Assembly (NCBI GenBank): GCA_013032095.1
Contig: WQBJ01000007.1
Coordinates: 1-64,000 of the forward strand
Length of the DNA stretch: 64,000 nucleotides
Direction of reading: 5' to 3'
Source: Ruegeria atlantica
GTDB taxonomy: Bacteria > Pseudomonadota > Alphaproteobacteria > Rhodobacterales > Rhodobacteraceae
Shown: in pieces, positions 207 to 29,055 of the stretch
Layout: every line of letters begins with the position of its first letter
Position numbering within the stretch: the stretch's first letter is position 1
Notes under the pieces: generated by a model
Seen by the model: the letters and a program-made list of their open reading frames with translations, nothing else
Told to the model about the DNA's origin: nothing
The model's database searches: none
Program-made: the position numbers and the translations under genes

Positions 207-821
207 TCAGGCGGAATCGGCTGAGCGCACGCGAGCCAGCAGGTCCGAAAAGGGCACGCGCAACAACAGAAGGCCGACAATCACGGACAGATAGATCAGT
301 GGCTCGATCTGAAAGCCCTTGGCCAACATGACGTAGTGCAGCCCGCCCAAAATCGCCGCCGGGAAGACAAGTCGCTGCAAGCTACGCCAACGCGGACCCA
401 ATTTTCGCACGGACAGATTGTTCGATGTAATCGCCAAGGGGAGCAACAGAACAAATGCGGCCATGCCGACCGTAATATAGGGACGTTTGACGATATCCGC
501 CCAAATCTGACTGGGCACCTGCACGTCCAGAATCAACCAAACCAAAAGATGCAGGCTGACATAAGTGAATGTCAGCACACCAAGGGCACGACGGAACTTG
601 AGCAGGTTCAGTCCCAAGAATCGCCGCAGAGGTGAAATCGCCAGCACAGCAATCAAAAGCTGCAGAGCCAGTTCGCCGTACCGGTGCTCGAGCGCCTCGA
701 TCGGATCGACACCCAGACCACCGGTCAGTCCCTGAAAGAACAGCCAAGGCGCGGGCAACGCGCCCAGCGCGTAGACCGCCCAGATTGGAACCCGTCGAAA
801 GACTAGATTTATCCGATCCAT
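207..821 (-). CDS. msrQ: MsrQ, heme-binding membrane subunit of the periplasmic methionine sulfoxide reductase
   Basis: A 204-residue multi-pass inner-membrane protein of the ferric-reductase-like family (formerly YedZ). It carries electrons from the quinone pool or cytoplasmic flavin to MsrP, which repairs oxidised methionines in periplasmic proteins. Hydrophobic segments cover most of the length, and His residues in the contexts SLHLLVW and GLHYVM are the likely heme ligands. The ATG at 821 is chosen because AGGAAA lies just upstream; the longer frame would start at a TTG. The partner msrP is on the same strand but about 820 bp upstream, separated by an opposite-strand gene, whereas the two are usually adjacent. 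Confidence 0.9.
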   Translation of the reverse strand: MDRINLVFRRVPIWAVYALGALPAPWLFFQGLTGGLGVDPIEALEHRYGELALQLLIAVLAISPLRRFLGLNLLKFRRALGVLTFTYVSLHLLVWLILDVQVPSQIWADIVKRPYITVGMAAFVLLLPLAITSNNLSVRKLGPRWRSLQRLVFPAAILGGLHYVMLAKGFQIEPLIYLSVIVGLLLLRVPFSDLLARVRSADSA

Positions 822-967
822 GATTTTTCCTGATCCCAATTCCGAATTAGCTCCAGTTCAAAGGGTTGCTTGCCAAATTTCCGTCTGATTTCCGGAGCAT
901 TATACCACTGACAACATTCAAAAATCACCAATCCTGACTTAGCAAATAATTACGCGGAGTAACTTTA

Positions 968-1644: not shown

Positions 1645-2547
1645 TCAATAGTTCGCAGTCAGATCTAAACCTTCGTAAAGCCCCGCGACCTCCTGCTCAT
1701 AACCGTTGAACATCAGAGTGGGGATACGCTTCGCAAATAGACCACCACCAATTTGACGTTCTGAGGCCTGCGACCAGCGCGGGTGATCCACGTTCGGATT
1801 CACATTACTATAGAAGCCGTATTCACGCGGGTTGGACATGTTCCAACTGGTGGGCGGCTCGACATCCGTCAGAGTGATCCGCACAATCGACTTGATCGAC
1901 TTGAAGCCGTATTTCCACGGCACCACCAGACGCAAAGGCGCACCGTTCTGGTTCGGGATCGGACGACCATAGATTCCAGTGGCCATGATGGTCAGCGGGT
2001 GCATCGCCTCATCCAGACGCAGGCCTTCACGATAGGGCCAATCCAGAATGGGGTACCGCACGCCGGGCATCTCCTCGGGGATAACGGCCGTTTCAAAGGC
2101 CACGTATTTAGCCCCTTCCTGCACGCCCGCCATATTCAGGAGATCCGCCAGTTCGAAGCCGTTCCACGGAATCACCATCGACCAGGCCTCGACACATCGG
2201 AAGCGGTAGATGCGCTCTTCGACCGTCATCTCAGACATGATGTCCTTGAAATCATAATCGCCCGGATTATCGACCAGCCCGTCGATCTTGACAGTCCACG
2301 GCTCGGTGGTCAGGGCGCCTGCGTATTTCACAGGATCATCCTTGCCCGTGCCGAACTCATAAAAGTTGTTGTAAGAGGTGATCTCCTCCCAGGTGTTCGG
2401 CTCCAGCGCCTCCTGTGCCGACGCACCCCGTGCCACCCCCGCCAGTCCAACACCTGCAAGCCCGGCCATAAGCTGCCGCCGGTTCAGGAACGCCGCCCTC
2501 GGGGTGACGTCTGCACGTGTCAATGTGTTGGTCCAGCGATGCGCCAT
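1645..2547 (-). CDS. msrP: MsrP, molybdopterin catalytic subunit of periplasmic methionine sulfoxide reductase
   Basis: A 300-residue TAT-exported molybdoenzyme of the sulfite-oxidase fold (formerly YedY) that reduces protein-bound methionine sulfoxide in the periplasm. The twin-arginine motif (NRRQLM) is at residues 22-27 and is followed by a hydrophobic stretch and an Ala-Ser-Ala cleavage region. Cys118, in RFRCVEAW, is the expected molybdenum ligand. The start at 2547 is chosen because GGAG lies nine bases upstream and because it places the TAT signal correctly; the longer frame adds 53 residues without signal character. Its membrane partner MsrQ is encoded at 207-821. Confidence 0.93.
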
Positions 2548-2807
2548 GTATTTCTCCGTCGTCAAAAACCTCGGATGTGAGGTAGTCCGCTGATAGCACA
2601 GAGCCAAGGAAACAAGCGTCACGATTGAGAGACGAGATTGTAACGTATCGGATAAAGCCAACAGGCGCGGCCTGACGCGGCGAGCCTCGCGATTCCCGAA
2701 AGACACATTGCCCGCAGCTTTGGACGGGATTTCTGAAAAGGACTGGCACGGTACGGCAGGCTTCGATACCTCGATCTACAACGAAACATTAACCAGAGAT
2801 TAACGCG

Positions 2808-15708: not shown

Positions 15709-16259
15709 TCTCATGCTTGGATGAAACCGGCTTTGACGCCGCCCTGGACGATCTGACCGACATCTTGCACGCCTGTGTACATGACGGTGCGAGTATTGGC
15801 TTCATCCTGCCCTTCGCGCCCGATCAGGCCCGAGCGTATTGGCAGAACCGTGTCCGCCCGGACCTGCACACCGGCGCGCTGGACCTGTTCGTTGCACGGG
15901 GTAACGAGCGTATTCTGGGCACGGTTCAGTTGATCCCGGCGATGATGCCCAACCAGCCGCATCGAGCTGATGTCGCCAAGCTGCTGGTTCACCCCGAAGC
16001 CCGACGCCGGGGGCTGGGGCGCGCCTTGATGGCCGCCCTTCAGGATCGCGCAATCGCGTTGGGCCGGTCTCTGCTGGTACTGGACACGCGCAGTACAGAT
16101 CCGTCGTGCATCCTTTATCAAAGCCTTGGCTTTCAGATCGCCGGTGAGGTTCCGAACTATTGTCGCAACCCGTTTGAGGATCGGCTGGAACCTACAACCT
16201 ATATGTTCAAGGATCTCAGTCAGGCCGACGTCTTGCGCACATTGGCGGCAAAGCAATAG
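15705..16259 (+). CDS. GNAT-family N-acetyltransferase
   Basis: A 184-residue GCN5-related acetyltransferase. The acetyl-CoA binding motif A is seen as VHPEARRRGLGRALM at about residues 96-110. It is coupled to the preceding XRE-cupin regulator. The acceptor substrate is unknown; the pairing suggests a small amine or antibiotic-like molecule sensed by the cupin. The last 40 bases overlap the 3' end of the convergent response regulator gene. Confidence 0.88.
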   Translation: MISCLDETGFDAALDDLTDILHACVHDGASIGFILPFAPDQARAYWQNRVRPDLHTGALDLFVARGNERILGTVQLIPAMMPNQPHRADVAKLLVHPEARRRGLGRALMAALQDRAIALGRSLLVLDTRSTDPSCILYQSLGFQIAGEVPNYCRNPFEDRLEPTTYMFKDLSQADVLRTLAAKQ

Positions 16260-16945
16260 CCAATACCATGTACGGTTTTGATGAAAGCCGGAACCGAAGG
16301 ATCAGGTTCGATCTTCTTGCGTAGCCGCGCCACATGCACGTCAATGGTGCGATCTCCAACGATGGTTTCACGCCCGCGCGCCTTGTCCAGCAGTTGATCG
16401 CGCGAAAACACCATGTGCGGATTGGTGACAAAGGCCAGCAACACGTCGAATTCGGTTGTGGTCAGAGGCGTCGGTCCAGGCGCACCCGCGGCCGTCAGAG
16501 TGCGCTCATTGACGTTCAACACCCAGTCGCCGAATTTGATCAACGGAGTGTCCGACCCGTTCACCACCTTCTCCTCTGGCCGCGCGCGGCGCAGAACAGT
16601 ACGGATTCGGGCCAGAACCTCGCGCGCCTCAAAAGGTTTCGTGATGTAGTCATCCGCCCCGAATTCCAGCCCCACAACCCGGTCAAAAATCTCATCGCGA
16701 CCAGACAGAACGATGATGGGTATGTTGGACTGGACGCGCAATTCACGCGTGATATCGAACCCGTTGCGTCCAGGCAGGCCGATGTCCAGCAGGATCAGGT
16801 CGATCTCGGAAGATTCCAGAATCGCATCCATCGCATTGCCGTCGGCAGCACAACTGACCCGGCAGCCCTGTTTTTCGAGGTAGCGCTGCAGGAAAGATGT
16901 AATTTGCGGGTCGTCATCGACGACAAGGATATGTTCTTTCACCAT
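16220..16945 (-). CDS. OmpR-family response regulator at the end of the iodate reductase locus
   Basis: A 241-residue two-domain response regulator. The receiver domain (1-120) has Asp10-Asp11-Asp12, phosphoacceptor Asp54 in LLDIGLPG, and the TKPFE switch Lys. The winged-helix DNA-binding domain (about 140-235) ends in TVHGIGYCF. Start 16945 is used because it gives the canonical MVKEHILVVDDD; the longer frame adds 33 residues with no domain. No kinase gene is adjacent; the nearest is the hybrid kinase at 26833-29055 across the idr genes, a plausible partner. Its 3' end overlaps the convergent acetyltransferase gene by 40 bases. Confidence 0.9.
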   Translation of the reverse strand: MVKEHILVVDDDPQITSFLQRYLEKQGCRVSCAADGNAMDAILESSEIDLILLDIGLPGRNGFDITRELRVQSNIPIIVLSGRDEIFDRVVGLEFGADDYITKPFEAREVLARIRTVLRRARPEEKVVNGSDTPLIKFGDWVLNVNERTLTAAGAPGPTPLTTTEFDVLLAFVTNPHMVFSRDQLLDKARGRETIVGDRTIDVHVARLRKKIEPDPSVPAFIKTVHGIGYCFAANVRKTSA

Positions 16946-17040
16946 AGTCGGGTCCGGGCGGGCGGGTTGAGCTAGCGCTGGACATTGGTAGCCGTTGCCG
17001 CTTGAATCTTGCAAGAACGCGGCGTGTTCAGACGTCGTAC

Positions 17041-18285
17041 TCAAAACCGCAGAAATGGCAGGGCGTGGCCCTTGGGCAACTCCTCGGTATCAGCGGAAAT
17101 AATAGCAAGGCCATCTGCCTGAGCCAACAGAGCAACGCGCCCGCTATAGGACGCCGCCATCAGGCGCAGCCTCGGCGTGCCATCGGGCTTGGTGCCTTCG
17201 ATCATCACAGGGCGATATTCCTGACGTCCGGCCCTGCGGTCCAGCGGTTCGGCCAGAATCGCCGGCTCCGGGGTCTGCGGCGCGTGATGCAGACCTGCTC
17301 GGCGCGCCATCATATGCGAGCCGATAATTTGCCAGGTCACAAAAGCCGACACCGGATTACCTGGAAGGCCGACATAGAGCGCATCACCCCTGCGACCAAA
17401 CATGATCGGCTTGCCCGGCTTCATCGCCACCTTCATCACGTCGGTCTTGCCACCGATTTCGGCAAACAGGCGGGGCATGTGATCTTCGTCGCCCACCGAC
17501 ACGCCTCCTGTAGTGACAATCAGATCAGCACTGTCGCAGGCATCGCGCAGAACTTGTTCCAACCGCGAGGGGTCGTCTTCGATCGGTCCATTGTCGGTCA
17601 GGTCGATCCATGGTTTGTCTAGCAAAGCCCGCAGCATGTAACGGTTTGAGTTGTAGATCTGACCCGGTCCCAGTTCTTCACCGGGCTGCCGCAACTCACT
17701 GCCGGTTGAGAAGATGGTGACCTTCAGTTTGCGATACACGGTCACCTCGCCATACCCGGCCGAGGCCAGCGCGGCGACTTCACGCGCGGTGATCTCACAC
17801 CCTCGCCGCAGGATTGGCGCGCCTGCTTTCAGGTCCTCACCCGCACGGCGGATGTGTTGCCCGGGCTTGGGGCGGCGCGTAAAGCGGATGCCGTCGTTGC
17901 TGACCTCGCAATCTTCTTGCATCAGAACGGCATCGAAATCGGCAGGCACCGGAGCACCGGTGAAAATCCGCAGGGCGCCGCCTGCAGGTGCGTCGTGGGC
18001 TCCGCTGTCTCCGGCGGCCACGCGCCCGGCGACGGGCAGATCAAACAATGGCCCGCTGCCCAGATCAGCCGTGCGGATCGCATAACCATCCATCGCCGAA
18101 TTGTCGAAGGCGGGCATGTCGACCTTGCTGGTGCAATCCTGGGCCAGTACCCGGCCAATCGCGCCAATCAGCGGCAGGGTTTCAGTCTCGGTCACAGGGT
18201 CGGCCACGGACAGACCCCGGGTCAGAGCCTCGGATACCGACAGATACGTATGAGCGTGCCGGTCGCAGGCGCATCCATCAGCCAT
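17041..18285 (-). CDS. moeA: Molybdopterin molybdenumtransferase MoeA
   Basis: A 414-residue enzyme that inserts molybdate into adenylated molybdopterin. Recognisable are the N-terminal DNSAMDGYAIR stretch, the catalytic-domain motif TTGGVSVGDEDHM, and GLPGNPVSAFVTW. Start 18285 is fixed by GGAG and overlaps the end of the copper-protein gene by eight bases, so it is translationally coupled to it. A moeA inside this unit fits the need to supply cofactor to the molybdoenzyme encoded upstream; moeA is likewise linked to arsenite oxidase loci in other bacteria. Confidence 0.94.
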   Translation of the reverse strand: MADGCACDRHAHTYLSVSEALTRGLSVADPVTETETLPLIGAIGRVLAQDCTSKVDMPAFDNSAMDGYAIRTADLGSGPLFDLPVAGRVAAGDSGAHDAPAGGALRIFTGAPVPADFDAVLMQEDCEVSNDGIRFTRRPKPGQHIRRAGEDLKAGAPILRRGCEITAREVAALASAGYGEVTVYRKLKVTIFSTGSELRQPGEELGPGQIYNSNRYMLRALLDKPWIDLTDNGPIEDDPSRLEQVLRDACDSADLIVTTGGVSVGDEDHMPRLFAEIGGKTDVMKVAMKPGKPIMFGRRGDALYVGLPGNPVSAFVTWQIIGSHMMARRAGLHHAPQTPEPAILAEPLDRRAGRQEYRPVMIEGTKPDGTPRLRLMAASYSGRVALLAQADGLAIISADTEELPKGHALPFLRF

Positions 18286-18766
18286 TTGGGTTCTCCAGTT
18301 GTTCGAACAGTTCTTCAAATCCGGCACGCTCGGCCTCGCCCAGCTTGGGCAGGTAAGCACGTGCCTCTTCAAGATTCGTACTTGGGTCGCCTACGACCAA
18401 TAGCATCACCATGCCATGCCGCCCATGAACGCGACAACGAATGCCGTAGACGCCCTCATTCTTGAAACTCAGGTCCATTTCGGGTTTGCCACGAATTTCG
18501 AAAGCACGCGCGCCGACCGGAATCATGCGGATAATCGACGTCACCGTATGTCGCCCTGTCGAGCCCTTGAAACGCACGGTGGACCCGGCCGGAACCTGTA
18601 AAAGTTTCGGTTCGAACCGGAAGGCATGGGCCGGAGTATCTGCGTTCAGGTCGATGATCTGATGTACCACGGCGACCTCAGGGAGATCCTCGGCCTGCGC
18701 GGCAAGGGCAAATACAGTCGCCCCTGCAATTATCATCGCTGCAATTGTCTTCAGCGAAATCGTCAT
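18278..18766 (-). CDS. Periplasmic pseudoazurin-like blue copper protein
   Basis: A 162-residue cupredoxin with a Sec signal peptide (cleavage after Ala-Gln-Ala near residue 25). The type 1 copper ligands can be read as His73 (GRHTV), Cys111, His114 and Met119 (in IRCRVHGRHGM), the pattern of pseudoazurins. A C-terminal helical extension of about 35 residues follows. GGAGG precedes the start. It sits directly between the HEAT-repeat gene and moeA, so it is a strong candidate for a soluble electron carrier to or from the Rieske/molybdopterin enzyme. Confidence 0.88.
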   Translation of the reverse strand: MTISLKTIAAMIIAGATVFALAAQAEDLPEVAVVHQIIDLNADTPAHAFRFEPKLLQVPAGSTVRFKGSTGRHTVTSIIRMIPVGARAFEIRGKPEMDLSFKNEGVYGIRCRVHGRHGMVMLLVVGDPSTNLEEARAYLPKLGEAERAGFEELFEQLENPNG

Positions 18767-18780
18767 CTGTTCCTCCGGGT

Positions 18781-20982
18781 TTAGGCCGCCCGCGAGGGTT
18801 TCCCCAGCAAGTCGACCAGCGCGCTAATCATTACTGGCCATTGGGCTCGGCGGTCATGGTCGCGCAGCTCGGCCAGCAATTGACGCCCAATGGACACCAC
18901 CGCCGGGGTGCTGTCATTGACATAGGTCACGATTCTCTGCTCGGGGTTGGCCAGCAAAAAGGGCACGATTGCGGCCCCCGCCTGATCGGGCGCGGTTTCC
19001 GACAACAGCCGCATCGCTGCCTGCCGCACAGGAGCCGAAACATCATCCAGCAGGCTGCGCGCCACATCCGGAGTGCCGTCCCACTTGGTTAGAATGTGCA
19101 TCGCATCAATACGGAAGGGAGTGTCCCCGGTCTTCAGCATTGCCCGGAGTTTGCCACGCAGGGCGTCTTGCGACGGCAAGTCAGCCTGTTGCAGAAGCTT
19201 CAACGCCTGCAGCGACAGGGCTGAATCCGTATGCGAAAGGCCTTTGGTAATCAGATCGACCAGCTGATCTTCGGCCAGCTCCGCGCCATGTCGCGCCACC
19301 GAAACGGCCAGCGCTGCAAACGCCTGTTGCGCAATTTCGGTTTCGGGATCTTGTGCAATCTGAGCCAGCATGATCTGCATACCCTTCACCTCGCCCAATA
19401 GGCGGATGGCGGACAGGCGGGTCTCGCGATCCAGTGCGTCGGCATCATCGTCCAGCGTAACGCGGCGCCGTTTGGGGTGGCGAGTTGCCTTGGCCAGCAA
19501 CGCCTGTTCGCGCGGCGTCAGGGGTTGGACTTCGTCCTCCTCAGCCTCCTGCGTTATCTCGGCCGCAATGGCGTCATGGCCCAAGATCGCACCGAGGCTG
19601 GAGGTCGGGCCGTTCTCGCCCGCCTCGGAAACATCCAAACCCGCCTCTTCCAGCGCGGCGATGTCGGTTTGCGGCGTTTCTTCGGGCACTTTCTCCGAAA
19701 TGGGCATCGGCGTGAGCGCAAAGGACAACAGCAACTCGCGACCCTGCTGCTGGTTCACATGCGGGCGGCTTTCATCGGTGACGATCATCGCCAGCGATGC
19801 CATGGCTTTCAGCCGCACCGACCGAAAGGGCGACCGGCAGGCGCGCTGCAACCACTCTGCCGCTTCTCGCAAGGGCGAGGTCGCCAGCGCATCGACAATG
19901 GCCCATTGCAGCCGCTCGGCTTTGAGGTCATCTGATTCCACCGAGAAGAGCGCGTTTAGTCTATCAGCCACGAGTTCCGGGGCCAAAGCAGCCAACAGAC
20001 CCAACGCTTGTGCCGAGACCTCGGGCTGTTTACCGGTGGCAAGGAAATCCAGCACCTGCCAGCGCAAATCCTCCTGTTTCGCAATCGGCGTGCTACGGTC
20101 GAGCCGCTCGATCAGCGCCAGCTGCACTTTGGCGCCGGGGTCGCGCATCATGCGGTCCAGCAATTCGGGCTCTGAAAAACCGGACAGGCTCAGCGCCGCG
20201 ATACGGATGTCTTCGACCGTGTCAGTCAGGGCCTGTTCGACAAGCGCGGCATCATTCGGCATCAGCGCCTCATAGGCGATCAGACGCACGGCGCCATCCT
20301 TGTCGGTAACGGCCTTGCGCAGGATGGCTTCGGCCTCGGACCCGCCAATCGCGGCCAGCGTCCGCAGGGCGCGGTGGCGCAGGCGGCGATTCTTTGATTG
20401 GGTGAACACGCCCAACGTCGGCACTGCAGGCTCGCCGATCCTGCCCAGCGCCTCGCAGGCCACATCACCCAGTTCTTGCCCGTCTTCATCCATCAGGGCC
20501 ATGACGATGGGTTCAATCGCGGCAGCGTCACCCATAAGACCCAGCGCCTTGATCGCGGCGATCTGGGTATCCAGCCAGTCGTCCCATTCATCTTGGTGCA
20601 GCTCGTCTTCGTCCCATGTGATCTCGTCCCCGCGCCCGGTGACGAGAGTGCGCAGGTAAGGCGCAGCGTCTTCTGATTTCAACTCGGCCAAGGCGGTCAC
20701 GCAGGCCAGTTTGACTTCACCGCAGGGATCGTGGATCAGGTTTTCCAGCAATTGCGGCGCGGCCTCTTGCACGCCCAGTGCGCCCAACGCTTGGGCAGCG
20801 TCCTGACGGACGTCTTCATCGTCATCCAACAGTGCCTCGACCAAAGCCGGGCTTTTGCTGGCACCAATGGCGGTCAGGGCCTGAATGGCGCGCAGGCGGA
20901 TCACGTCATATTCAGATTTTGCGTGATCAGAGAGCAGGCTGGTGGCCTCATCACGCAGGGCGGTATCGGAATGCATGTTCAT
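18781..20982 (-). CDS. Large HEAT-repeat protein in the iodate reductase operon
   Basis: A 733-residue protein built almost wholly of HEAT/PBS-lyase-type helical repeats of about 30 residues (for example KSPALVEALLDDDEDVRQDAAQALGALG near the N-terminus), interrupted by an acidic linker around residues 420-520. There is no signal peptide, so it should be cytoplasmic. The start at 20982 is the first ATG downstream of the idrA stop (21128); upstream in the same frame the reading overlaps idrA. Such proteins usually scaffold or act as chaperones. A role in maturing the molybdoenzyme before TAT export is an inference from position. Confidence 0.85.
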   Translation of the reverse strand: MNMHSDTALRDEATSLLSDHAKSEYDVIRLRAIQALTAIGASKSPALVEALLDDDEDVRQDAAQALGALGVQEAAPQLLENLIHDPCGEVKLACVTALAELKSEDAAPYLRTLVTGRGDEITWDEDELHQDEWDDWLDTQIAAIKALGLMGDAAAIEPIVMALMDEDGQELGDVACEALGRIGEPAVPTLGVFTQSKNRRLRHRALRTLAAIGGSEAEAILRKAVTDKDGAVRLIAYEALMPNDAALVEQALTDTVEDIRIAALSLSGFSEPELLDRMMRDPGAKVQLALIERLDRSTPIAKQEDLRWQVLDFLATGKQPEVSAQALGLLAALAPELVADRLNALFSVESDDLKAERLQWAIVDALATSPLREAAEWLQRACRSPFRSVRLKAMASLAMIVTDESRPHVNQQQGRELLLSFALTPMPISEKVPEETPQTDIAALEEAGLDVSEAGENGPTSSLGAILGHDAIAAEITQEAEEDEVQPLTPREQALLAKATRHPKRRRVTLDDDADALDRETRLSAIRLLGEVKGMQIMLAQIAQDPETEIAQQAFAALAVSVARHGAELAEDQLVDLITKGLSHTDSALSLQALKLLQQADLPSQDALRGKLRAMLKTGDTPFRIDAMHILTKWDGTPDVARSLLDDVSAPVRQAAMRLLSETAPDQAGAAIVPFLLANPEQRIVTYVNDSTPAVVSIGRQLLAELRDHDRRAQWPVMISALVDLLGKPSRAA

Positions 20983-21127
20983 ATCAGGTCTGCCATGTTT
21001 GCGGTTGGGAGAGGTTGGGGAAGTGGAAGACAGGTTTCCCAACCGATACCTGCCTTCCAGGTGGTCCCTTCTGCAGTGGGACCAGACCCGAGGGGCGGCA
21101 TGGCGTCCGCCCCCCGGAAAGCGGTCA

Positions 21128-23809
21128 TCAGGCGATGTCGCGCGGTGCAAAGGACATCGTACGGAACGAGGTCTTGTAGGGGCTCGGCCCCAATTTGCGT
21201 AGCTTGGCAACGCCCATCTTGTAGTTGTAGTTGCCGCTGATCCAGTCGACGATCCGGCCCTCAAGCGCGTTGGCAGGTTGCTGCATGTGCAGGAAGTCCA
21301 TGTAGACCACGCTTTTCTTGATGGCCGGCGTGACCATGGCCACGGCGGTGATCGCCGCTTTGGTCAGTTCGATATGGCCGTTCTCCATCAGTTTCGAGAA
21401 CTGGAAGTCATCGCCTTCCACACCCAGCAGCGTGGTCTTGTTGCCCGGAACGCGTTCTGAATAGACCATCACATAGTCACCGCTTTCGATACCGCGCTCG
21501 GCTGCATCGTCAGGGTGAATCTCGACCCAGTTCTCCGGCCAGCGCTGCACGATATACGGGCGGCGACGGTCGTCGAAGCCGGACTGCCAGCGTTCGTTGA
21601 TCCGACCGGATGTAGCCCAAAGCTCACCTTCGTCCTTGTTGGGTTTCAGCCATTCCCAATAGTCCGAGAAAAGACTCCATGGCGATTTCTGGATGTTGCA
21701 CTTGCCAGTCTGGCTGTTGAAATGCGTCAGCTTCTTGTTGAACACATCCTTACCCGCTGCACCGGTTTCAGGCAGCGTGCGGGTTGTGTCGTGCAGACGC
21801 TTGGTTTCAATCAGCGTGACACCGTCGGCATCCAGCATGACCGGGCATTGGACACCATCGGTTCCGAATTCACGGACCTTCTGGTGCAGGCCTTTGCCCT
21901 CTTTCTTGGCCAGACGAAAGACAGCGTGGAAGTCCTTGCGCGACCCGCGGGTAAAGCGCACGGCCTCTTCGGCAACCTCGTTCGAGTTCTGCCAATCGAA
22001 CCCGTCAAAGCCCATCCGCTGTGCTAGTTGCGCGATGATCCACCAGTCGGGCTTGGCCGCACCGGGGGCATCATAGAACTTCTGGTACAGACGCAGTCGG
22101 CGTTCGCCATTGGCGCGCAGGAAGTCCTCTTCGCCCCAGGTCGCCGCGGGAAACACGATGTCGGCGTAGCGGTTGCCGATCGGGTCCTGTAAATAGATGT
22201 CCTGGTTGATCACCACCATACCGCCGCTGTCGGCGCGGGCCTTCAGCGTATCGATCATCTCTCGCTTATCGAAAGAGGCGATCTGGTTCGGGTTGCGGAC
22301 GGTGAGTTCCTCGAACTTGTCGGCCAGTTGCTGCGAACCGCACATGGACTGGATCCAGGTGGTTCCGATCACGTGGGCCATACGGGTATGACCTGCGATC
22401 AGATACCGGTCGGTATCCATGGCGCGGCGACGGCGGCCCGGCAGTTTCTCGGGCGATTTGTTGCGCGGGTATTTCCCGCCCTTCACGCCTCCCCGCTGGT
22501 GACCACCGGCCCGGCCAATGACCTGCCCCGGACGTCCGCCACAACCACAGATGATGCCCAGCGCGGAAATCGCCTGTGTGTTGCCGGTATTGTTCGACCA
22601 GTAGAACCCTTTCTCGATCATGATCGACGTTTTCGGGCGCGAGCCGTCCTCTTTGGGTTTGGCGAGCCACTCAGCAGCCGTATAGATCTTCTGCACGTCG
22701 ATCTCGGCCATGGCCGCGGCGGTCTCAGGCGCGAATTCGTCCTGCGACAACAGCCATTCTTTCCAGTCCTCGAAGCCCTTGGTCTGGAACTTGCCCCAAG
22801 TTGTCCGCCACTGCCACGGCGTGTTCCGGGTGCCCTGACCGAAGCCAGACGAGCTTTCCCACTTGTTGTTGACCCATTTCTTGATCCAGTCGCTGTCTTC
22901 CCAGCCATTTTCCACAATGACGCGGGCGATGGCGTTGACGACTAGCAGGTCGGTGCCGGGCAGGACGTCGATATGCAGCCCGCCCATCTTTTCGGCATGG
23001 GCCACACCGGCGGACCGGCGTGGGATCAGATAGATTTCGCGCTGACCGTTTTGCATCCCTTTCATCATCCACTGGGTATAGAGGATGGTCTTTGTCTCAT
23101 ACGGGTCGGTGCCGCAGACCAAAAGGGTTTCCGCATCGCGCCAGTCTTCATACGAGGGGCCGAAGTTGTCGAAGCCTGCGTCCCGGAAACCGGGGGTCGA
23201 GGTCACGTCGGATGGCGTGTCGTGGAAGGTGAAGTTCGCGGTGTTGATATGGCGCAGCGCGTATTTCGAGATCGCGTAGGTGTTCTCGATATACTGATAG
23301 CTGAAGGTCTTCACGCCATAGGCATTGGTGCCGTGTTTGGCGATGACGTGATTGCCAACTTCAGCCGCCACATCCAGCGCCAGATCCCACGGAACCGGCA
23401 TCAGCGTGCCATAGATCCGCATCAGCGGCGTCTTCAGACGGTCACGTGTCGGTGTCTGCGGGTTATAGCATTTCTGCGCGATACACCCGCCCCGCAAAGA
23501 ACTGTCGCCGTCGGTGTTGACGTATTGCGTGTCCTTGTCAGGGATGATCACCACGTGGTGCGGCTGACCTTTGTGCAGCACGATATTGTGCTGGTTCGGC
23601 GCGACCCAGGCACCCAAGGGTGCCACGGGGAAGTCCTCGCCAAATGCGTTTTCTTCCGCCGATGGACCACCGGGTTTGGCCGTCACGGGCCAGCGGTAGA
23701 CTTTGTAACCACAGGCCACGATGCAGTAATCGCAGGCGGTCGAGATGACCTCAGCGCCTTTGGGCGGCAGCGGGACGTTGGTTTCGGGTACGTAATACGG
23801 GGTTGCCAT
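21128..23809 (-). CDS. idrA: Molybdopterin oxidoreductase, probable iodate reductase catalytic subunit IdrA (arsenite oxidase-like)
   Basis: An 893-residue enzyme of the DMSO-reductase superfamily, in the AioA/IdrA branch. Near the N-terminus Cys26-x2-Cys29-x3-Cys33 matches the iron-sulfur ligand spacing of AioA (3Fe-4S); typical molybdopterin-guanine-dinucleotide binding stretches follow. It has no signal peptide of its own and should be exported as a complex with the TAT-tagged Rieske subunit encoded just upstream. At 893 residues it is longer than well-studied AioA proteins (about 825). The two di-heme peroxidase genes in the same unit are the hallmark of idrABP1P2 iodate reductase loci and are not part of arsenite oxidase operons; no arsenic genes are seen. 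The expected reaction is dissimilatory reduction of iodate in the periplasm. Arsenite oxidation remains the alternative. Confidence 0.75.
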   Translation of the reverse strand: MATPYYVPETNVPLPPKGAEVISTACDYCIVACGYKVYRWPVTAKPGGPSAEENAFGEDFPVAPLGAWVAPNQHNIVLHKGQPHHVVIIPDKDTQYVNTDGDSSLRGGCIAQKCYNPQTPTRDRLKTPLMRIYGTLMPVPWDLALDVAAEVGNHVIAKHGTNAYGVKTFSYQYIENTYAISKYALRHINTANFTFHDTPSDVTSTPGFRDAGFDNFGPSYEDWRDAETLLVCGTDPYETKTILYTQWMMKGMQNGQREIYLIPRRSAGVAHAEKMGGLHIDVLPGTDLLVVNAIARVIVENGWEDSDWIKKWVNNKWESSSGFGQGTRNTPWQWRTTWGKFQTKGFEDWKEWLLSQDEFAPETAAAMAEIDVQKIYTAAEWLAKPKEDGSRPKTSIMIEKGFYWSNNTGNTQAISALGIICGCGGRPGQVIGRAGGHQRGGVKGGKYPRNKSPEKLPGRRRRAMDTDRYLIAGHTRMAHVIGTTWIQSMCGSQQLADKFEELTVRNPNQIASFDKREMIDTLKARADSGGMVVINQDIYLQDPIGNRYADIVFPAATWGEEDFLRANGERRLRLYQKFYDAPGAAKPDWWIIAQLAQRMGFDGFDWQNSNEVAEEAVRFTRGSRKDFHAVFRLAKKEGKGLHQKVREFGTDGVQCPVMLDADGVTLIETKRLHDTTRTLPETGAAGKDVFNKKLTHFNSQTGKCNIQKSPWSLFSDYWEWLKPNKDEGELWATSGRINERWQSGFDDRRRPYIVQRWPENWVEIHPDDAAERGIESGDYVMVYSERVPGNKTTLLGVEGDDFQFSKLMENGHIELTKAAITAVAMVTPAIKKSVVYMDFLHMQQPANALEGRIVDWISGNYNYKMGVAKLRKLGPSPYKTSFRTMSFAPRDIA

Positions 23810-23823
23810 GATACCGTCTCCCC

Positions 23824-24393
23824 TTATGCAATCAGGTTGTCGTAACGGCCGTAGATCAGGCCGAACATGCCAACGGCGTAGATGTCATCGCCGTCCAGTT
23901 CCAAAAGGACTTGCGGCAGCGACTGGTAGGCCTGCCCCGAAACGAGGATGCCGTGCCGTGTCACGTCATAGGTGGACAGATGCAGCGGGCACGGGCCCAG
24001 CACCTTATGTTCAGGCTTGTAGCTGTCATACATCGACCCGCCCTGGTGGGTGCAGGTGAGGTTAAAGGCCACAACGTCCTTTTGCGGACCGATCCCGCCG
24101 CCGCTTTCTACGCCGGTCTTGACCAGGATCGAATCCGAATAGTCTCCCTCATCCGGGTAGTAGAACTCGACCGGGACATCCTGCTCCAGCTCGGACAGCT
24201 TGCCGATCAGCTTGCGCGGATAGGTGGATACAAGGGCGGGCACTTGTTCCGCTTGGCCATGGCGGGTGGGCATGGCCACCATCACGGCAAAGGTCGTGGC
24301 ACCCGAGGCGAACAGGAACTGGCGGCGGTTCACGGTGCAGGCCTTTTTGGCCTCGCCCGAACAGCTGCATCCGGTTGCGTTATGATCTATCAT
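23824..24393 (-). CDS. idrB: TAT-exported Rieske 2Fe-2S subunit, probable IdrB (AioB-like)
   Basis: A 189-residue small subunit. The twin-arginine motif NRRQFLF (22-28) is followed by a hydrophobic core. The Rieske cluster motifs are Cys114-x-His116 (CTHQGG) and Cys135-x2-His138 (CPLH). The N-terminus before the TAT signal carries three Cys residues (9, 11, 19), which is unusual. The gene lies 14 bases upstream of idrA and begins after GAGGAG. In the AioBA/IdrBA pattern the Rieske protein passes electrons between the molybdenum subunit and the outside carrier and supplies the export signal for both. Confidence 0.82.
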   Translation of the reverse strand: MIDHNATGCSCSGEAKKACTVNRRQFLFASGATTFAVMVAMPTRHGQAEQVPALVSTYPRKLIGKLSELEQDVPVEFYYPDEGDYSDSILVKTGVESGGGIGPQKDVVAFNLTCTHQGGSMYDSYKPEHKVLGPCPLHLSTYDVTRHGILVSGQAYQSLPQVLLELDGDDIYAVGMFGLIYGRYDNLIA

Positions 24394-24398
24394 GACGC

Positions 24399-25586
24399 TT
24401 ACTCCTCTGCTGCAACCGCAGGAAGCGGCTGGTAATCCGGCAGGTCGGGTTCCTCGATCAGGATTTCCTCGCCGGACAGGGATTTCAGGAAGGCCACCAG
24501 ATCCGATTTCTCCTGGTCATTCAGACCAAGGGGTTGGATCAGCGGGGATTTGTTATCCGAGAACTCATTCTCGCCGCCGCCCTGATTGTAGAATTCGACC
24601 ACACCCTCGAGCGTCGCCAGCATGCCGTTATGCATGTAGGGTTCGGTATAGAGGGTGTAGCGCAGGGACGGCGTACGGAACTTGCCCTTGTCGGCCTTTT
24701 CCTTGGTGCGGAAATAGAACCCTGGGTCGTCCTTGGTGTGGCGATACATCTCTTCGGTCGAGCCTTTGGCATACAGCTCATACCGGAAAGTGACTTGCGC
24801 CAGACCATCGTCCTGCCAACCGTCATAGGCGGGCACGCCGGTGTTGTAGTACTTCTCATCCGACAGCAGCGCGCCGTTATGGCATTCGGAACATTGCGCC
24901 TTGCCGGTGAACAGCTCCAGCCCGCGTTTCTGTTCCTCGGTCAACGCCGCATCATCCCCACGCAGATAGTTGTCGAAGGGGGTGTCGGTCTGAACGATGG
25001 TGCGTTCGAACGCGGCGATGGCCCGCCACGCGTTGCCGATGCGCGGCCATTGATCGCCGAACACATCGTTGAACCGTTCCACATATTCGGGAACGAAGGC
25101 CAGACGTGCCTCCATCATGTCAGCCTCACCGTTCCCGGCAACTGCACCGCTTGCGGCGGATTTGGCCTGGCTTTCAAGGCTTTTGGACGAGCCCGCCCAG
25201 AACAGTTTGCCGTAATAGGCCGAGTTCACGATGGTCTGACTGTTGCGCCAGTGGGTGGTGCCGGGATAGCCGAACGAGATCGGCGCTTCGACATCCCAAC
25301 CCACATAAGGGTTGTGACAAGCCGAACAGGGGGTCGACTCGTTACCGCCCAGACGTGGATCGAAAAACAGCATTTTGCCCAGTTCGATCTTGGCGTCAGT
25401 TTGGGGGTTGTCCAGCGGGATGGGCGGCTCGCCCAGCGCCACCAGCGGCGCATCTGGGTCGGGATCTGCCCCGCCGATACCGGCCTCAATCTCCATACTG
25501 GTTTCCGCAATGGCCTGCGACCCAAGAACGGCAAACAGGGCAGCGGTGGCGATTGTGCCTTTGAAGTAAGACGAAAGGTCTTTCAT
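24399..25586 (-). CDS. idrP2: Periplasmic di-heme cytochrome c peroxidase, probable IdrP2
   Basis: A 395-residue protein of the bacterial di-heme cytochrome c peroxidase/MauG family. It has a Sec signal peptide (about 1-27) and two heme c sites, CSACH (Cys87, Cys90, His91) and CSECH (Cys232, Cys235, His236). It reduces hydrogen peroxide with electrons from a small cytochrome or cupredoxin. In described iodate reductase loci two such peroxidases (P1, P2) are thought to remove peroxide formed during iodate reduction. The stop lies five bases before the idrB start. The P1/P2 labels follow gene order and are tentative. Confidence 0.78.
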   Translation of the reverse strand: MKDLSSYFKGTIATAALFAVLGSQAIAETSMEIEAGIGGADPDPDAPLVALGEPPIPLDNPQTDAKIELGKMLFFDPRLGGNESTPCSACHNPYVGWDVEAPISFGYPGTTHWRNSQTIVNSAYYGKLFWAGSSKSLESQAKSAASGAVAGNGEADMMEARLAFVPEYVERFNDVFGDQWPRIGNAWRAIAAFERTIVQTDTPFDNYLRGDDAALTEEQKRGLELFTGKAQCSECHNGALLSDEKYYNTGVPAYDGWQDDGLAQVTFRYELYAKGSTEEMYRHTKDDPGFYFRTKEKADKGKFRTPSLRYTLYTEPYMHNGMLATLEGVVEFYNQGGGENEFSDNKSPLIQPLGLNDQEKSDLVAFLKSLSGEEILIEEPDLPDYQPLPAVAAEE

Positions 25587-25597
25587 GGGTCCACTCC

Positions 25598-26704
25598 TCA
25601 GTTTGTCGCTTCTTGCCAGTTCTCGATCGGCGCATAGTCCGTATCGATATCCTCGGCGACGAAGTCGGGGCCAGTCAGCGGCTCGCCGGACAACGCCTTG
25701 AGGAAGGCCACCAGCTGCGCTTGCTCGGTCTCGTTCAGGTTCAACGGCTTGATGCGCGGGTCCTTGTTTTCATCGTCACCGCCACCGGCGTTGTAAAAGG
25801 CCACCACATCCTCGAGCGTCGCAATCGAACCGTTGTGCATATACGGCGCGGTGTAAGTCAGCTCGCGCAGCGTGGGGGTCATGAAGGTGCCAAACGTGTC
25901 GGCCGTGTGGGTGCGGATGTAGGCGCCCGGATCGGCGCGCAGGTTCATGTAATTCGCAACGCCGAGAAACTTCATCATGGTCACAAAGGTGATGTGACGT
26001 TCAGGGGTCGCCCAGATATCAGGGTTGTCACCGACGCCGATATTGTGCGGCAGGTCATCTGTGAACCGCTCGCCCGCGTGGCAGGAGTTGCAACCACCGG
26101 CGTTGAACAGCTCATAGCCCGCCTTGGCTTCCTCCGACATCTCACCAGTATCAAACGGAGCCCCGCGCGAAATCAGCGTTTTCAGGTATTCCGGGATCGC
26201 GTTGCGCACACCACCGTTCGAGGGCTCGCCAAATCCGGCGGATTCGAACATTTCGACATAAACTGGATCCTGCTTGATGCGTTCCTGCATCAGACGCATG
26301 TCCATGTTCATGGAATAGGTCTCGGTGATGCTTTCGCGGGTCACGTCGTTGAGATTGGTGCCGATGCGCCCATCATGGAACCACGCCGCACGCTTGGCGC
26401 TGTTGATCAACGTCGGCACATTGCGGAAATGCAGGTTCCCTGCATAGGCGTCCGACAGAGCCTGCCCATCGGTAAAACCGTATTCCGGCTGGTGGCAGCT
26501 GGCACAGGACAATTCGGTGTCGCCAGACAGGCGCGGGTCAAAAAACAAACGTTTGCCAAGGGCCGCCTTGGCGGGATCGAACTCTATGGCTTCTACCGGG
26601 CCAGGCTCATCCGCCTGGGCCTGGTGAACCGGTAATGCAGCGCAGACCGTCAGCAGTGAAACTGTCGACAGCGCCGAGAACCATGTTCTGGCTTTGGTCA
26701 TCAT
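25598..26704 (-). CDS. idrP1: Periplasmic di-heme cytochrome c peroxidase, probable IdrP1
   Basis: A 368-residue di-heme cytochrome c peroxidase. It has a signal peptide cleaved after Ala-Gln-Ala near residue 31 and heme c motifs CASCH (Cys67, Cys70, His71) and CNSCH (Cys205, Cys208, His209). It is a diverged paralogue of the next gene, 11 bases downstream. It is the first structural gene of the unit; an FNR-like site lies about 95 bases upstream of its ATG. Tandem ATG codons at 26704 and 26701 are both possible starts. P1/P2 numbering is tentative. Confidence 0.78.
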   Translation of the reverse strand: MMTKARTWFSALSTVSLLTVCAALPVHQAQADEPGPVEAIEFDPAKAALGKRLFFDPRLSGDTELSCASCHQPEYGFTDGQALSDAYAGNLHFRNVPTLINSAKRAAWFHDGRIGTNLNDVTRESITETYSMNMDMRLMQERIKQDPVYVEMFESAGFGEPSNGGVRNAIPEYLKTLISRGAPFDTGEMSEEAKAGYELFNAGGCNSCHAGERFTDDLPHNIGVGDNPDIWATPERHITFVTMMKFLGVANYMNLRADPGAYIRTHTADTFGTFMTPTLRELTYTAPYMHNGSIATLEDVVAFYNAGGGDDENKDPRIKPLNLNETEQAQLVAFLKALSGEPLTGPDFVAEDIDTDYAPIENWQEATN

Positions 26705-26792
26705 CTAAAAGCCCCTTTATCGCTAATCCGATCACACGGGTTGGCCGAGGACCGGCTAAACGAAGCGTAAAGGCCAGTTGTTTCGAGGTGAT

Positions 26793-26806
26793 TTGATCCA
26801 GATTAA
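26793..26806. promoter_or_regulatory. FNR/Dnr-like operator upstream of the iodate reductase genes
   Basis: TTGATCCAGATTAA matches the FNR consensus TTGAT-N4-ATCAA at nine of ten fixed positions. Its centre is about 95 bases upstream of the idrP1 ATG, in the only sizeable non-coding gap (26705-26832) of the locus, which suits activation when oxygen is low. Confidence 0.65.
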
Positions 26807-26832
26807 AGAGCATGAAGAGATATTAAAAAATG

Positions 26833-29055
26833 TTACGATCTCTGACTGATCGAGGCACGAATGAACCGCGCAAGCTGCTGTATTTCAATTGGTTTCTGCG
26901 CGATGATTAAATTGTCTGTATCCGACATCTTCTCCATGTCGTCGAAATAGCTGCTGATCAGGATCGCGGGTACGTCCCGTCGGGCGGCCCGCGCGGACTC
27001 GATCAGATCTATCCCCATTAGGCCAGGCATCTTGAGGTCGGTCACAACAACATCATAGCTGTCCGGCGCCTCCTGAAACGCCGCCTGCGCTTTAAGCGGG
27101 TCGGAGTACGCCTCGACCCGATAGCCGTAGCGCGTTAGCAACTTGCGCGTGACAAAAAGGACATTCTCATCGTCATCGACCAGCATTACATGCTCGGACC
27201 CGGCCACGGCGCGCATTTCGGCCTGCTGTTCGGGGCTGAGGGCAGGCATCAGCGGGTAAAACAGGCTGAACCGCGTCCCCTTGCCGGGTTCCGAGTGTAG
27301 CTCGACCCGGCCGTGGGATTCCTCGACGCTGTTATGCACGATAGTCAGACCCAGCCCGGTGCCCTTGCCAATGGGTTTGGTGGAAAAGAACGGCTCGAAA
27401 ACTTTCTGTTGCACCTGTTCGGACATGCCCGGCCCGGTGTCCGAGACGTCCAGCCGGATCACACCAATGGCCTCGTCGGGCAGGTCGTCCAGCGCGGTGT
27501 CCTCGGCCCGGCTGATCCGCAGCACCACTTCGCCCGGCTGATCGCCCATGGCCTCGAACGCGTTGTGGCAGAGGTTCAACAGGGTCTGGAAAAACAGGGT
27601 GCCGTCGAAATCGGAAAAGGCAGCGTCGATCTCAGCGTCAAAACGAGTCTCCACGCTGGGCGGGGCCGAGACCTTAATCAGGTCCAGCGCCTCTTGCGTC
27701 GCTTTCACCAGATCGCCGCGTTGCGGATTGCGCGGGCGCTGGCGGGCAAAAGTCAACATCTTGCGCACCAAGGCCTGCGCGCGACGCGCCGCGATGCGGA
27801 TATGGCTGACCGAGGTCTCAATGTCCGCGTTGCCAGCTGCGTCCATCTCTATCAAGTCGGCATTGCCGATCACACTCATCAGAACGTTGTTGAAATCATG
27901 CGCGACCGAGCCTGCAAGGATGCTGACCGCCTCCATCTTCTGCACCTGGGCGAACTGCTCGCGGGTGCGGCGGGTCTCGGTAATGTCCTCGCCGATGCCG
28001 ATATAATGGGTGATGGTCCCGTTTTGATCCACCAGGGGGAAAATCGCGGTCGACACCCAATAATGCGCACCATCCTTACGCAGGTTGCGGAACACGCCAT
28101 ACCAGCTTTGGCCGTGCTTCAACTTGCCCATCAGATCGTCATATACTCCCTGCCCGGAATGCCCAGATTGCAGCAGTTTCGGTGTATGGCCATAAACCTC
28201 GTCTGCCGTGTAACCGCTGAGGTCAAAGAATTTGCGGTTGGCATATTCGATCTTCAGGTCGGTGTCGGTGATCAGGATTGAGGTCGGGCTTTGCTCGACC
28301 GCGCGGGCCAGTTTGCGTTCGGCTAGTTCGACCTGTTCGCGCAGGGCCAGTTCGGCCTTAAGGCGGCTGTTGGTGCGCAGGATGTTTGTGATCAGCAGAG
28401 TGGTGAGAATGGCAATCACCCCGACCAGAAGGATCAACCCCACCAGCAGAACCGAGAAGTTGCGCACCAGGCGTTCCCCATCCGAGAACGCCTCAACCAT
28501 GTCCGACAGGCTGCGGTCCCGCTCTTGGATCCACAGCGTTTCCAACGTGGCCAGTGCGGCCAGGGCATCGCTGTCATCGACCCGGACACGCGCGTCGATC
28601 TGTTCCGCAGTCTGGCCTGCAGCTATCCCGGCCTCGATCAAAGGAATGTTGCCGGTATATTCTAAAGCAACGTCTTCGATCTGCCGCAGAGCCTCCAATT
28701 CCGTCGGGTAGGGGTCAGAATTGCGATAAGCTTGGATAGTTGCCAGCAGCCGGTTCGATTGCTGACGCAGGATTGGGCCTAATGCAGGGTCCTGCCGCAG
28801 CACGTAATTCTTGAAGTTGTGGATGAACCCGCCATATCCGAAATCCTCTCGGATATCGGAAATCCAGTAGCCCCTCGGTGTGGTTTCGGCGGAATAGCTC
28901 TGCCAGGCTTGCCGCATGTCACCAATACGGGCCACGGTTTCTCGAGACATGTATAAAAAAACCGTCAAGATGATGACGAGTGCTATGCCAATTGCGAACG
29001 CGACGGCCAAAGGCCGCCTTGGATAACCATCGATACCTTCGGGGACGTCTTTCAT
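26833..29055 (-). CDS. Membrane-bound hybrid sensor histidine kinase (PAS, kinase, receiver)
   Basis: A 740-residue hybrid kinase. Membrane segments at about 16-36 and 199-226 bracket a periplasmic sensor of about 160 helical residues. A coiled coil (about 230-254), a PAS domain (254-360), the H-box with His386 (AHDFNN), an ATPase domain with N-box (NLCHNAFEA), DTGPGM and GTGLGL motifs, and a C-terminal receiver with Asp673 follow. Start 29055 is preferred over 29163 because the longer frame runs into nadC. It is codirectional with and just upstream of idrP1; sensing of iodate or redox state is inferred from position only. Confidence 0.88.
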   Translation of the reverse strand: MKDVPEGIDGYPRRPLAVAFAIGIALVIILTVFLYMSRETVARIGDMRQAWQSYSAETTPRGYWISDIREDFGYGGFIHNFKNYVLRQDPALGPILRQQSNRLLATIQAYRNSDPYPTELEALRQIEDVALEYTGNIPLIEAGIAAGQTAEQIDARVRVDDSDALAALATLETLWIQERDRSLSDMVEAFSDGERLVRNFSVLLVGLILLVGVIAILTTLLITNILRTNSRLKAELALREQVELAERKLARAVEQSPTSILITDTDLKIEYANRKFFDLSGYTADEVYGHTPKLLQSGHSGQGVYDDLMGKLKHGQSWYGVFRNLRKDGAHYWVSTAIFPLVDQNGTITHYIGIGEDITETRRTREQFAQVQKMEAVSILAGSVAHDFNNVLMSVIGNADLIEMDAAGNADIETSVSHIRIAARRAQALVRKMLTFARQRPRNPQRGDLVKATQEALDLIKVSAPPSVETRFDAEIDAAFSDFDGTLFFQTLLNLCHNAFEAMGDQPGEVVLRISRAEDTALDDLPDEAIGVIRLDVSDTGPGMSEQVQQKVFEPFFSTKPIGKGTGLGLTIVHNSVEESHGRVELHSEPGKGTRFSLFYPLMPALSPEQQAEMRAVAGSEHVMLVDDDENVLFVTRKLLTRYGYRVEAYSDPLKAQAAFQEAPDSYDVVVTDLKMPGLMGIDLIESARAARRDVPAILISSYFDDMEKMSDTDNLIIAQKPIEIQQLARFIRASISQRS

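Follow-up and report, generated by a model that had tools for sequence, protein, structure and literature searches.

The stretch of DNA analysed here, referred to as the window, comprises 64,000 nucleotides of Ruegeria atlantica (GenBank assembly GCA_013032095.1, contig WQBJ01000007.1) at the start of a 193-kb contig, in a genome of 6.14 Mb and 272 contigs. On its minus strand it carries an island of the iodate reductase (Idr) type, in which the four core genes idrP2, idrP1, idrB and idrA are accompanied by genes for a HEAT-repeat protein, a cupredoxin, MoeA and a hybrid histidine kinase/response regulator pair. Judging from its sequence, the island belongs to one of two branches of the IdrA family (clade I below), and we consider it likely, at a probability of roughly 0.8, that it confers iodate reduction. 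The four-gene core is of an already known kind: idr loci of marine alphaproteobacteria are in print, and iodate reduction was measured in three species (PMC11445184). New are the constancy of the HEAT and cupredoxin partners, the candidate operator sites, and the divergence of clade I from loci resembling those of tested respirers. Ozone loss is driven by iodide that forms at the sea surface from iodate, and the idr genes carried by ordinary aerobic marine bacteria have been put forward as a source of that iodide (PMC11445184). The IdrA family is large (499 stretches, see below), and the branch represented by the window may be untested; its constant partners and candidate operator sites offer handles on IdrA assembly, electron supply and iodate sensing.

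The island is read in the order kinase, idrP2, idrP1, idrB, idrA, HEAT protein, cupredoxin, MoeA and response regulator (Table 1), with gaps of 11 nt (P2/P1), 5 nt (P1/B) and 14 nt (B/A) within the core, 145 nt between idrA and the HEAT gene and 14 nt between the HEAT and cupredoxin genes. These measurements bear out the initial annotation, which had described, in a roseobacter, a Rieske subunit with a twin-arginine translocation (TAT) motif and an 893-residue AioA-like enzyme behind two di-heme peroxidases, all on one strand with gaps of 5-14 bases and with an extended set of partners: every one of these open reading frames (ORFs) is present, the host is a Ruegeria, and HEAT protein, cupredoxin, MoeA, regulator and kinase make up the set, HEAT protein and cupredoxin being its constant members. 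Pfam and NCBIfam agree on the family assignments of the core genes. For the TAT signal of IdrB the Pfam model stays just below its cut-off (19.5 versus 22.7), while the twin-arginine sequence NRRQFL is present.

A named scan of a GTDB-based collection, run with two patterns so that the same locus may be counted twice, returned 499 stretches encoding IdrA relatives; the best 80 of these were considered, all at least 76% identical to locus L070 (L162 and L179 being partial matches), so that the scan covers named loci down to that identity. Before counting, 129 IdrA-bearing loci were reduced to 101 by collapsing those with identical C-terminal 500 residues, and the census was made by profile searches on all ORFs (antisense ORFs can mask idrA and the HEAT gene in plain gene calling). 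The order P2-P1-B-A, with both di-heme peroxidases directly adjoining idrBA, was found in the window and in 85 of the 86 loci that extend 3.4 kb or more upstream; the sole exception, L084, has a truncated idrA without those partners. Given this recurrence and the strong purifying selection on idrA, we do not regard the arrangement as a product of chance. The initial annotation had taken this order to be inverted relative to the published one, an idea ruled out by the published organisation, which is idrP2, P1, B, A in both Pseudomonas sp. SCT and Denitromonas IR-12 (PMC10989891); the two peroxidases always precede idrAB (PMC8801600), and 'idrABP1P2' is merely a naming order.

In a tree of 40 rows, calculated by a quick method that carries a long-branch warning, the 31 IdrA-type rows form one clade (starred support of 100, branch length 2.14) apart from all 7 AioA rows, which stem from named plasmids. 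Six of the latter form a clade of their own (starred support of 98), and the long-branched L195 has no firm place. The phylogeny that the initial annotation had proposed for the idrA product thus places it, as far as its sequence tells, outside arsenite oxidase and within a strongly supported IdrA clade, whose membership is defined by homologues sharing the locus structure and not by verified IdrA sequences. Like the window, the AioAB loci of NT-26, Sinorhizobium M14 and Thermus HB8 encode a molybdopterin large subunit with a [3Fe-4S] cluster and a Rieske subunit, Rieske gene first, and some have moeA (glp) and a two-component system nearby; moreover, the NCBIfam models TIGR02693 and TIGR02694 score above cut-off, and the closest solved structures by sequence are AioA. 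An arsenite oxidase variant that acquired two peroxidases is nonetheless very improbable: the tree place lies outside AioA, on which ground arsenite oxidase identity was rejected, identity to NT-26 AioA is 31%, and no arsenic-related Pfam family occurs in the 39 of 59 listed window ORFs that were scanned. The di-heme pair of the window likewise has no counterpart annotated within 3.5-7 kb in any of 7 AioA loci, as judged from an incomplete gene table. Of the residues H, E, R and H that we take to line the AioA binding funnel, the window retains H, R and H and has S in place of E (presumably E203 in A. faecalis numbering); here all 7 AioA sequences have E, 87 of 88 clade I sequences S and all 6 clade II sequences D, and AioA departs from IdrA in 15 columns that are near-fixed in the latter. 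Tree, synteny and the lack of annotated peroxidases in the AioA loci uphold the earlier assignment to an Idr-type locus.

The IdrA clade divides in two. The window falls in clade I (starred support of 97), together with other alphaproteobacteria, a Vibrio megaplasmid and L106; clade II (starred support of 100) holds Azonexus, Thiothrix, L107 and three loci from the family of the window, L079-L081, and L105 groups on its side (91, unstarred). Identity between the clades is 48-52% among the rows compared, and 49-51% between the window IdrA and clade II rows. Once rows at least 89% identical to a kept row, other Ruegeria included, had been thinned out, the row nearest to the window was Cohaesibacter (89%) and not Tritonibacter or another roseobacter, which suggests that idr genes were transferred between orders.

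Among characterised strains, Pseudomonas sp. SCT, Denitromonas IR-12, Azoarcus DN11 and Aromatoleum TC-10 share with the window the four genes, their order P2-P1-B-A and the Fe-S/Rieske spacing (PMC10149662, PMC8801600, PMC10989891, PMC8692401), the [3Fe-4S] spacing CX2CX3CX70S and Rieske spacing CXHX18CX2H being equal to those reported for DN11 (PMC10149662); as here, IdrB alone carries the TAT motif, and several of the strains have two-component genes nearby. The Azonexus and Thiothrix loci, which we infer to represent verified iodate-respiring strains, are about 49-50% identical to the window and come with accessory genes that have been reported from strains of that type, namely a kinase and sigma-54 regulator, a cytochrome c and moaA. 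In their place the window has the HEAT protein, the cupredoxin, MoeA and a regulator of the OmpR type. Roseovarius azorensis, Notoacmeibacter marinus and Aliiroseovarius sediminilitoris are likewise marine alphaproteobacteria with idrABP1P2, and they reduced iodate in static culture (PMC11445184); none of their loci is among the best 80 of the 499 stretches.

In 78 of the 79 loci that extend 1.8 kb or more downstream, the HEAT gene lies 3' of idrA and shares its strand, a count that excludes loci assigned to clade II and the Vibrio/L106 pair and that includes the diverged HEAT protein of L105; the exception is L100. The gene is absent from 7 of 7 clade II loci (with the truncated L084 counted there by identity, not by tree) and from both Vibrio and L106. 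Within Ruegeria, orthologues of the HEAT protein (at least 71% identity) and the cupredoxin (at least 66%) occur in exactly those 19 of 54 genomes that have idrA. Among the 35 others, the HEAT protein survives only as its last ~55 residues in two (G029, G1162), distant cupredoxins of 28-31% identity are found in four (G002, G004, G1163, G1164), and G1163 has a cupredoxin stretch at 46%. The HEAT protein is predicted to fold into an alpha-solenoid made up of two halves (pLDDT 85.9). Inspection by eye shows no signal peptide, and 14 of its 19 invariant residues, W123, W133 and W136 among them, fall within residues 55-169. Most likely, we infer, it acts in the cytoplasm on IdrA/IdrB, either in assembly or in proofreading before export. 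The HEAT fold is a generic one, and a Foldseek search with the model returned only generic solenoids at low TM-scores and gave no functional clue, which would also suit a protein that regulates or scaffolds without a part in IdrA maturation, with MoeA and the two-component pair as chance neighbours; MoeA outlasts idr in two genomes and the kinase was not found in several that have idrA. This alternative seems doubtful to us given the position of the HEAT gene directly 3' of idrA in nearly all loci, the 55-residue remnants as its only trace in idrA-negative Ruegeria, and the clustering of its invariant residues. MoeA as an idr-specific partner is ruled out, since it persists beside the idr scar in those two genomes; the window genome has three MoeA_N matches, of which the idr-linked one is one. 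The main text of PMC11445184, in its accessible parts, makes no mention of HEAT or cupredoxin partners or of binding sites, those of PMC8692401 and PMC8801600 do not use 'HEAT' in the gene sense, and a search of open-access full text, with subscription papers mostly outside it, gave nothing on point linking iodate with HEAT repeat, Ruegeria or cupredoxin.

Regulatory genes vary more than the partners. Of the 81 loci that extend 7 kb or more upstream, 11, all Ruegeria, have the kinase upstream and the regulator downstream, 24, including L079-L081 of clade II, have the kinase with a divergent regulator, 18 a divergent CRP/FNR-type regulator, two a sigma-54 type, one a regulator only and one a kinase only, and 24 none of these. 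In order to compare candidate binding sites, 86 upstream regions were considered, three loci with short upstream sequence being left out. A 10-bp-phased triple, TNACA-N5-TNACA-N5-TNACA, was sought no farther than 250 nt from idrP2; when one mismatch is allowed, 19 of 36 kinase/regulator loci have it versus 3 of 47 others (Fisher p 2e-6; shuffles 0.1%), these three being two Ruegeria with a lost or broken kinase and one locus with a sigma-54 regulator. For perfect matches the figures are 8 of 36 versus 3 of 47 (p 0.05), and with up to two mismatches 25 of 36 versus 5 of 47 (p 3e-8), p values that are only a guide because the loci are related. When the entire loci of the kinase/regulator group were scanned, 23 of the 36 had a triple with at most one mismatch, and every site lay upstream of idrP2. 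In clade II, L081 has a site with one mismatch and L080 one with two; none was seen in L079. Of 20 CRP-type loci, 17 have the second candidate site, TTGATNNNNATCAA, with at most one mismatch (shuffles 1.7%), and TTAAY-N4-ATCAA occurs around -100 in 9 of the 17 Ruegeria regions inspected, namely the window, 3 of 10 other Ruegeria with the pair and 5 of 6 without an intact kinase. The FNR-like boxes together with the pair fit the published induction of idr in R. azorensis by low oxygen plus iodate (PMC11445184). That a two-component system is the likely iodate sensor has been published for another group of organisms (PMC8801600).

The sensor region of the kinase (28290-29055) has no Pfam match at 1e-3. 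It contains a motif, GYGGxIHNFKNYVLR, that is nearly invariant in the aligned idr kinases of both clades. The domain as an idr-specific iodate sensor was rejected because it is widespread: a scan at the level of the domain, not of the motif, gave matches in 23 of 150 Pseudomonadota genomes, the own genome counted in, and several genomes had two or more. In a presence search scoring 20 candidates per genome, none of the 35 idrA-negative Ruegeria gave a kinase match. As the kinase was not found or is broken in several idrA-positive Ruegeria, it is, on this genomic evidence, not essential for keeping the idr locus.

Several observations weigh against reading the island as an iodate reductase locus under kinase control. 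The large subunit exceeds the cut-off of the NCBIfam arsenite-oxidase model (401 versus 359 bits); the activity of clade I on iodate is a predicted one; the two clades show 66 near-fixed positional differences, some of which (198, 204) presumably adjoin funnel residues; no TNACA triple with at most one mismatch was found in 13 of the 36 kinase/regulator loci scanned, the window and L079 included; and of the 19 idrA-positive Ruegeria, 6 gave no kinase match (one of these, G028, runs into a contig end) and 1 has a broken kinase. A main substrate other than iodate, for instance another oxyanion such as bromate, with iodate a minor one, could be accommodated by the ~50% identity to clade II and these near-fixed differences, and no verified iodate reducer has been placed in clade I. 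As a weak hint that a tested roseobacter belongs to clade II instead, the predicted mass of R. azorensis IdrA, 99.4 kDa (PMC11445184), is matched within 0.05 kDa only by L081 of clade II among 95 rows compared. We nevertheless judge another main substrate unlikely, as clade I has the four genes, order and motifs of clade II, the kinase/regulator type is common to both, TNACA sites recur in L081 and L080 (not in L079), and iodate is a main form of iodine in the marine habitat. Of the proposal of an iodate respiration locus in the initial annotation, the Idr-type locus thus stands by tree and synteny, and activity on iodate stays a probable assignment at 49-51% identity to loci like those of tested respirers.

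From the observed genes, their order, phylogeny and co-occurrence and the conserved sites in related loci, a scheme for substrate, electron route, HEAT function and sensed signal can be proposed. IdrB would take IdrA to the periplasm via the Tat pathway. Electrons would pass from a quinol/bc1 branch to a small carrier, for which the adjacent cupredoxin is the best candidate, and from there through the IdrB Rieske centre and the IdrA [3Fe-4S] cluster to the molybdenum cofactor, the presumed site of iodate reduction, while IdrP1 and IdrP2 would, as in the published model, clear peroxide by-products. In the cytoplasm the HEAT protein may serve assembly or export proofreading of IdrA/IdrB, with MoeA as an extra gene for molybdenum insertion. 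Expression would most likely be gated by low oxygen through the FNR-type box and by the kinase/regulator pair at the TNACA repeats. More tentatively, and with the odds in our view against it, clade I might be a functionally distinct, mostly marine-alphaproteobacterial iodate reductase with HEAT-dependent maturation, cupredoxin feeding and an iodate-sensing kinase/OmpR-type regulator acting at TNACA repeats, the regulator having become common to both clades by module exchange. Some loci (L065, L066, L078, L083, L100, L101, L105) carry an extra module of a cytochrome bd-like membrane protein, cytochromes c and mostly an EB_dh/heme b-type protein, possibly a dedicated quinol-to-Idr chain.

Of the 54 Ruegeria genomes, 19 encode a full-length IdrA (15 of 37 in a first set, 4 of 17 in the others) at 96-99% identity (own 100%), leaving out weak matches of 26-29% to other molybdoenzymes. 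In genome draws that partly share genomes and each include the own genome, it matched in 22 of 394 (family), 12 of 385 (class) and 5 of 398 (phylum). Two of the 35 idrA-negative Ruegeria bear idr scars (L197 in G029, L196 in G1162); because a HEAT tail, a broken cupredoxin and an uninterrupted MoeA remain there, idr seems to have been lost together with its partners, MoeA excepted. Compared with four Ruegeria, idrA has a dN/dS of 0.020-0.032, the lowest of any gene in each comparison (response regulator set aside), and a synonymous divergence of 0.34-0.57 versus 0.40-2.32 for non-core genes, a pattern in keeping with high expression, with gene exchange among Ruegeria, or with the two combined. 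Loci filed as plasmid-borne occur in Azonexus (L048, beside Tn7-like genes and IS21), Thiothrix (L049, L085) and on a 1.7-Mb Vibrio replicon (L047). L177, on a contig labelled Anaerolineae, is laid out like the alphaproteobacterial L167, reflecting misbinning or transfer.

Table 1. Positions of the idr island, its candidate regulatory sites and a distant gene pair in the window.
Feature	Position	Strand	Description	Basis or remark
Hybrid histidine kinase	26833..29055	-	Periplasmic sensor domain, PAS, HisKA, HATPase, REC; candidate sensor	Start chosen by eye
TNACA-N5-TNACA-N5-TNACA copy	26811..26835	-	Degenerate, 10-bp-phased, 3 mismatches; upstream of idrP2	
FNR/FixK-box-like site	26793..26806	-	TTAATCTGGATCAA, 1 mismatch to TTGATNNNNATCAA; ~100 nt upstream of idrP2	
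idrP2	25598..26704	-	Di-heme cytochrome c peroxidase-like, two CxxCH (residues 67, 205)	Named by published order
idrP1	24399..25586	-	Di-heme cytochrome c peroxidase-like, two CxxCH (residues 87, 232)	Pfam
idrB	23824..24393	-	Rieske subunit, TAT motif NRRQFL, CXHX18CX2H	Pfam/NCBIfam
idrA	21128..23809	-	Molybdopterin large subunit, 893 aa, [3Fe-4S] motif CX2CX3CX70S, without own TAT motif	
HEAT-repeat protein	18781..20982	-	Solenoid protein, 733 aa; partner 3' of idrA	Start chosen by eye at MNMHSD
Cupredoxin	18278..18766	-	Pseudoazurin-like, N-terminal signal-like segment (by eye); candidate electron donor	Pfam/NCBIfam
MoeA	17041..18285	-	Molybdopterin molybdotransferase	Pfam; start chosen by eye
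Response regulator	16220..16945	-	OmpR-type	Pfam; start chosen by eye
Molybdopterin-binding oxidoreductase	1645-2706	-	Pairs with the ferric-reductase-like protein	
Ferric-reductase-like membrane protein	207-839	-		

In both clades, many loci encode a DUF2478-type protein close to idr (L110, L124, L081 and others; the Pfam assignment was made on L124 only). The window genome has eight PF00384 molybdopterin oxidoreductase matches. The ferric-reductase-like membrane protein and the molybdopterin-binding oxidoreductase at the start of the window form a pair, lying ~13.5 kb from the nearest idr-linked gene, that we take to resemble MsrQ/MsrP of periplasmic methionine sulfoxide repair.

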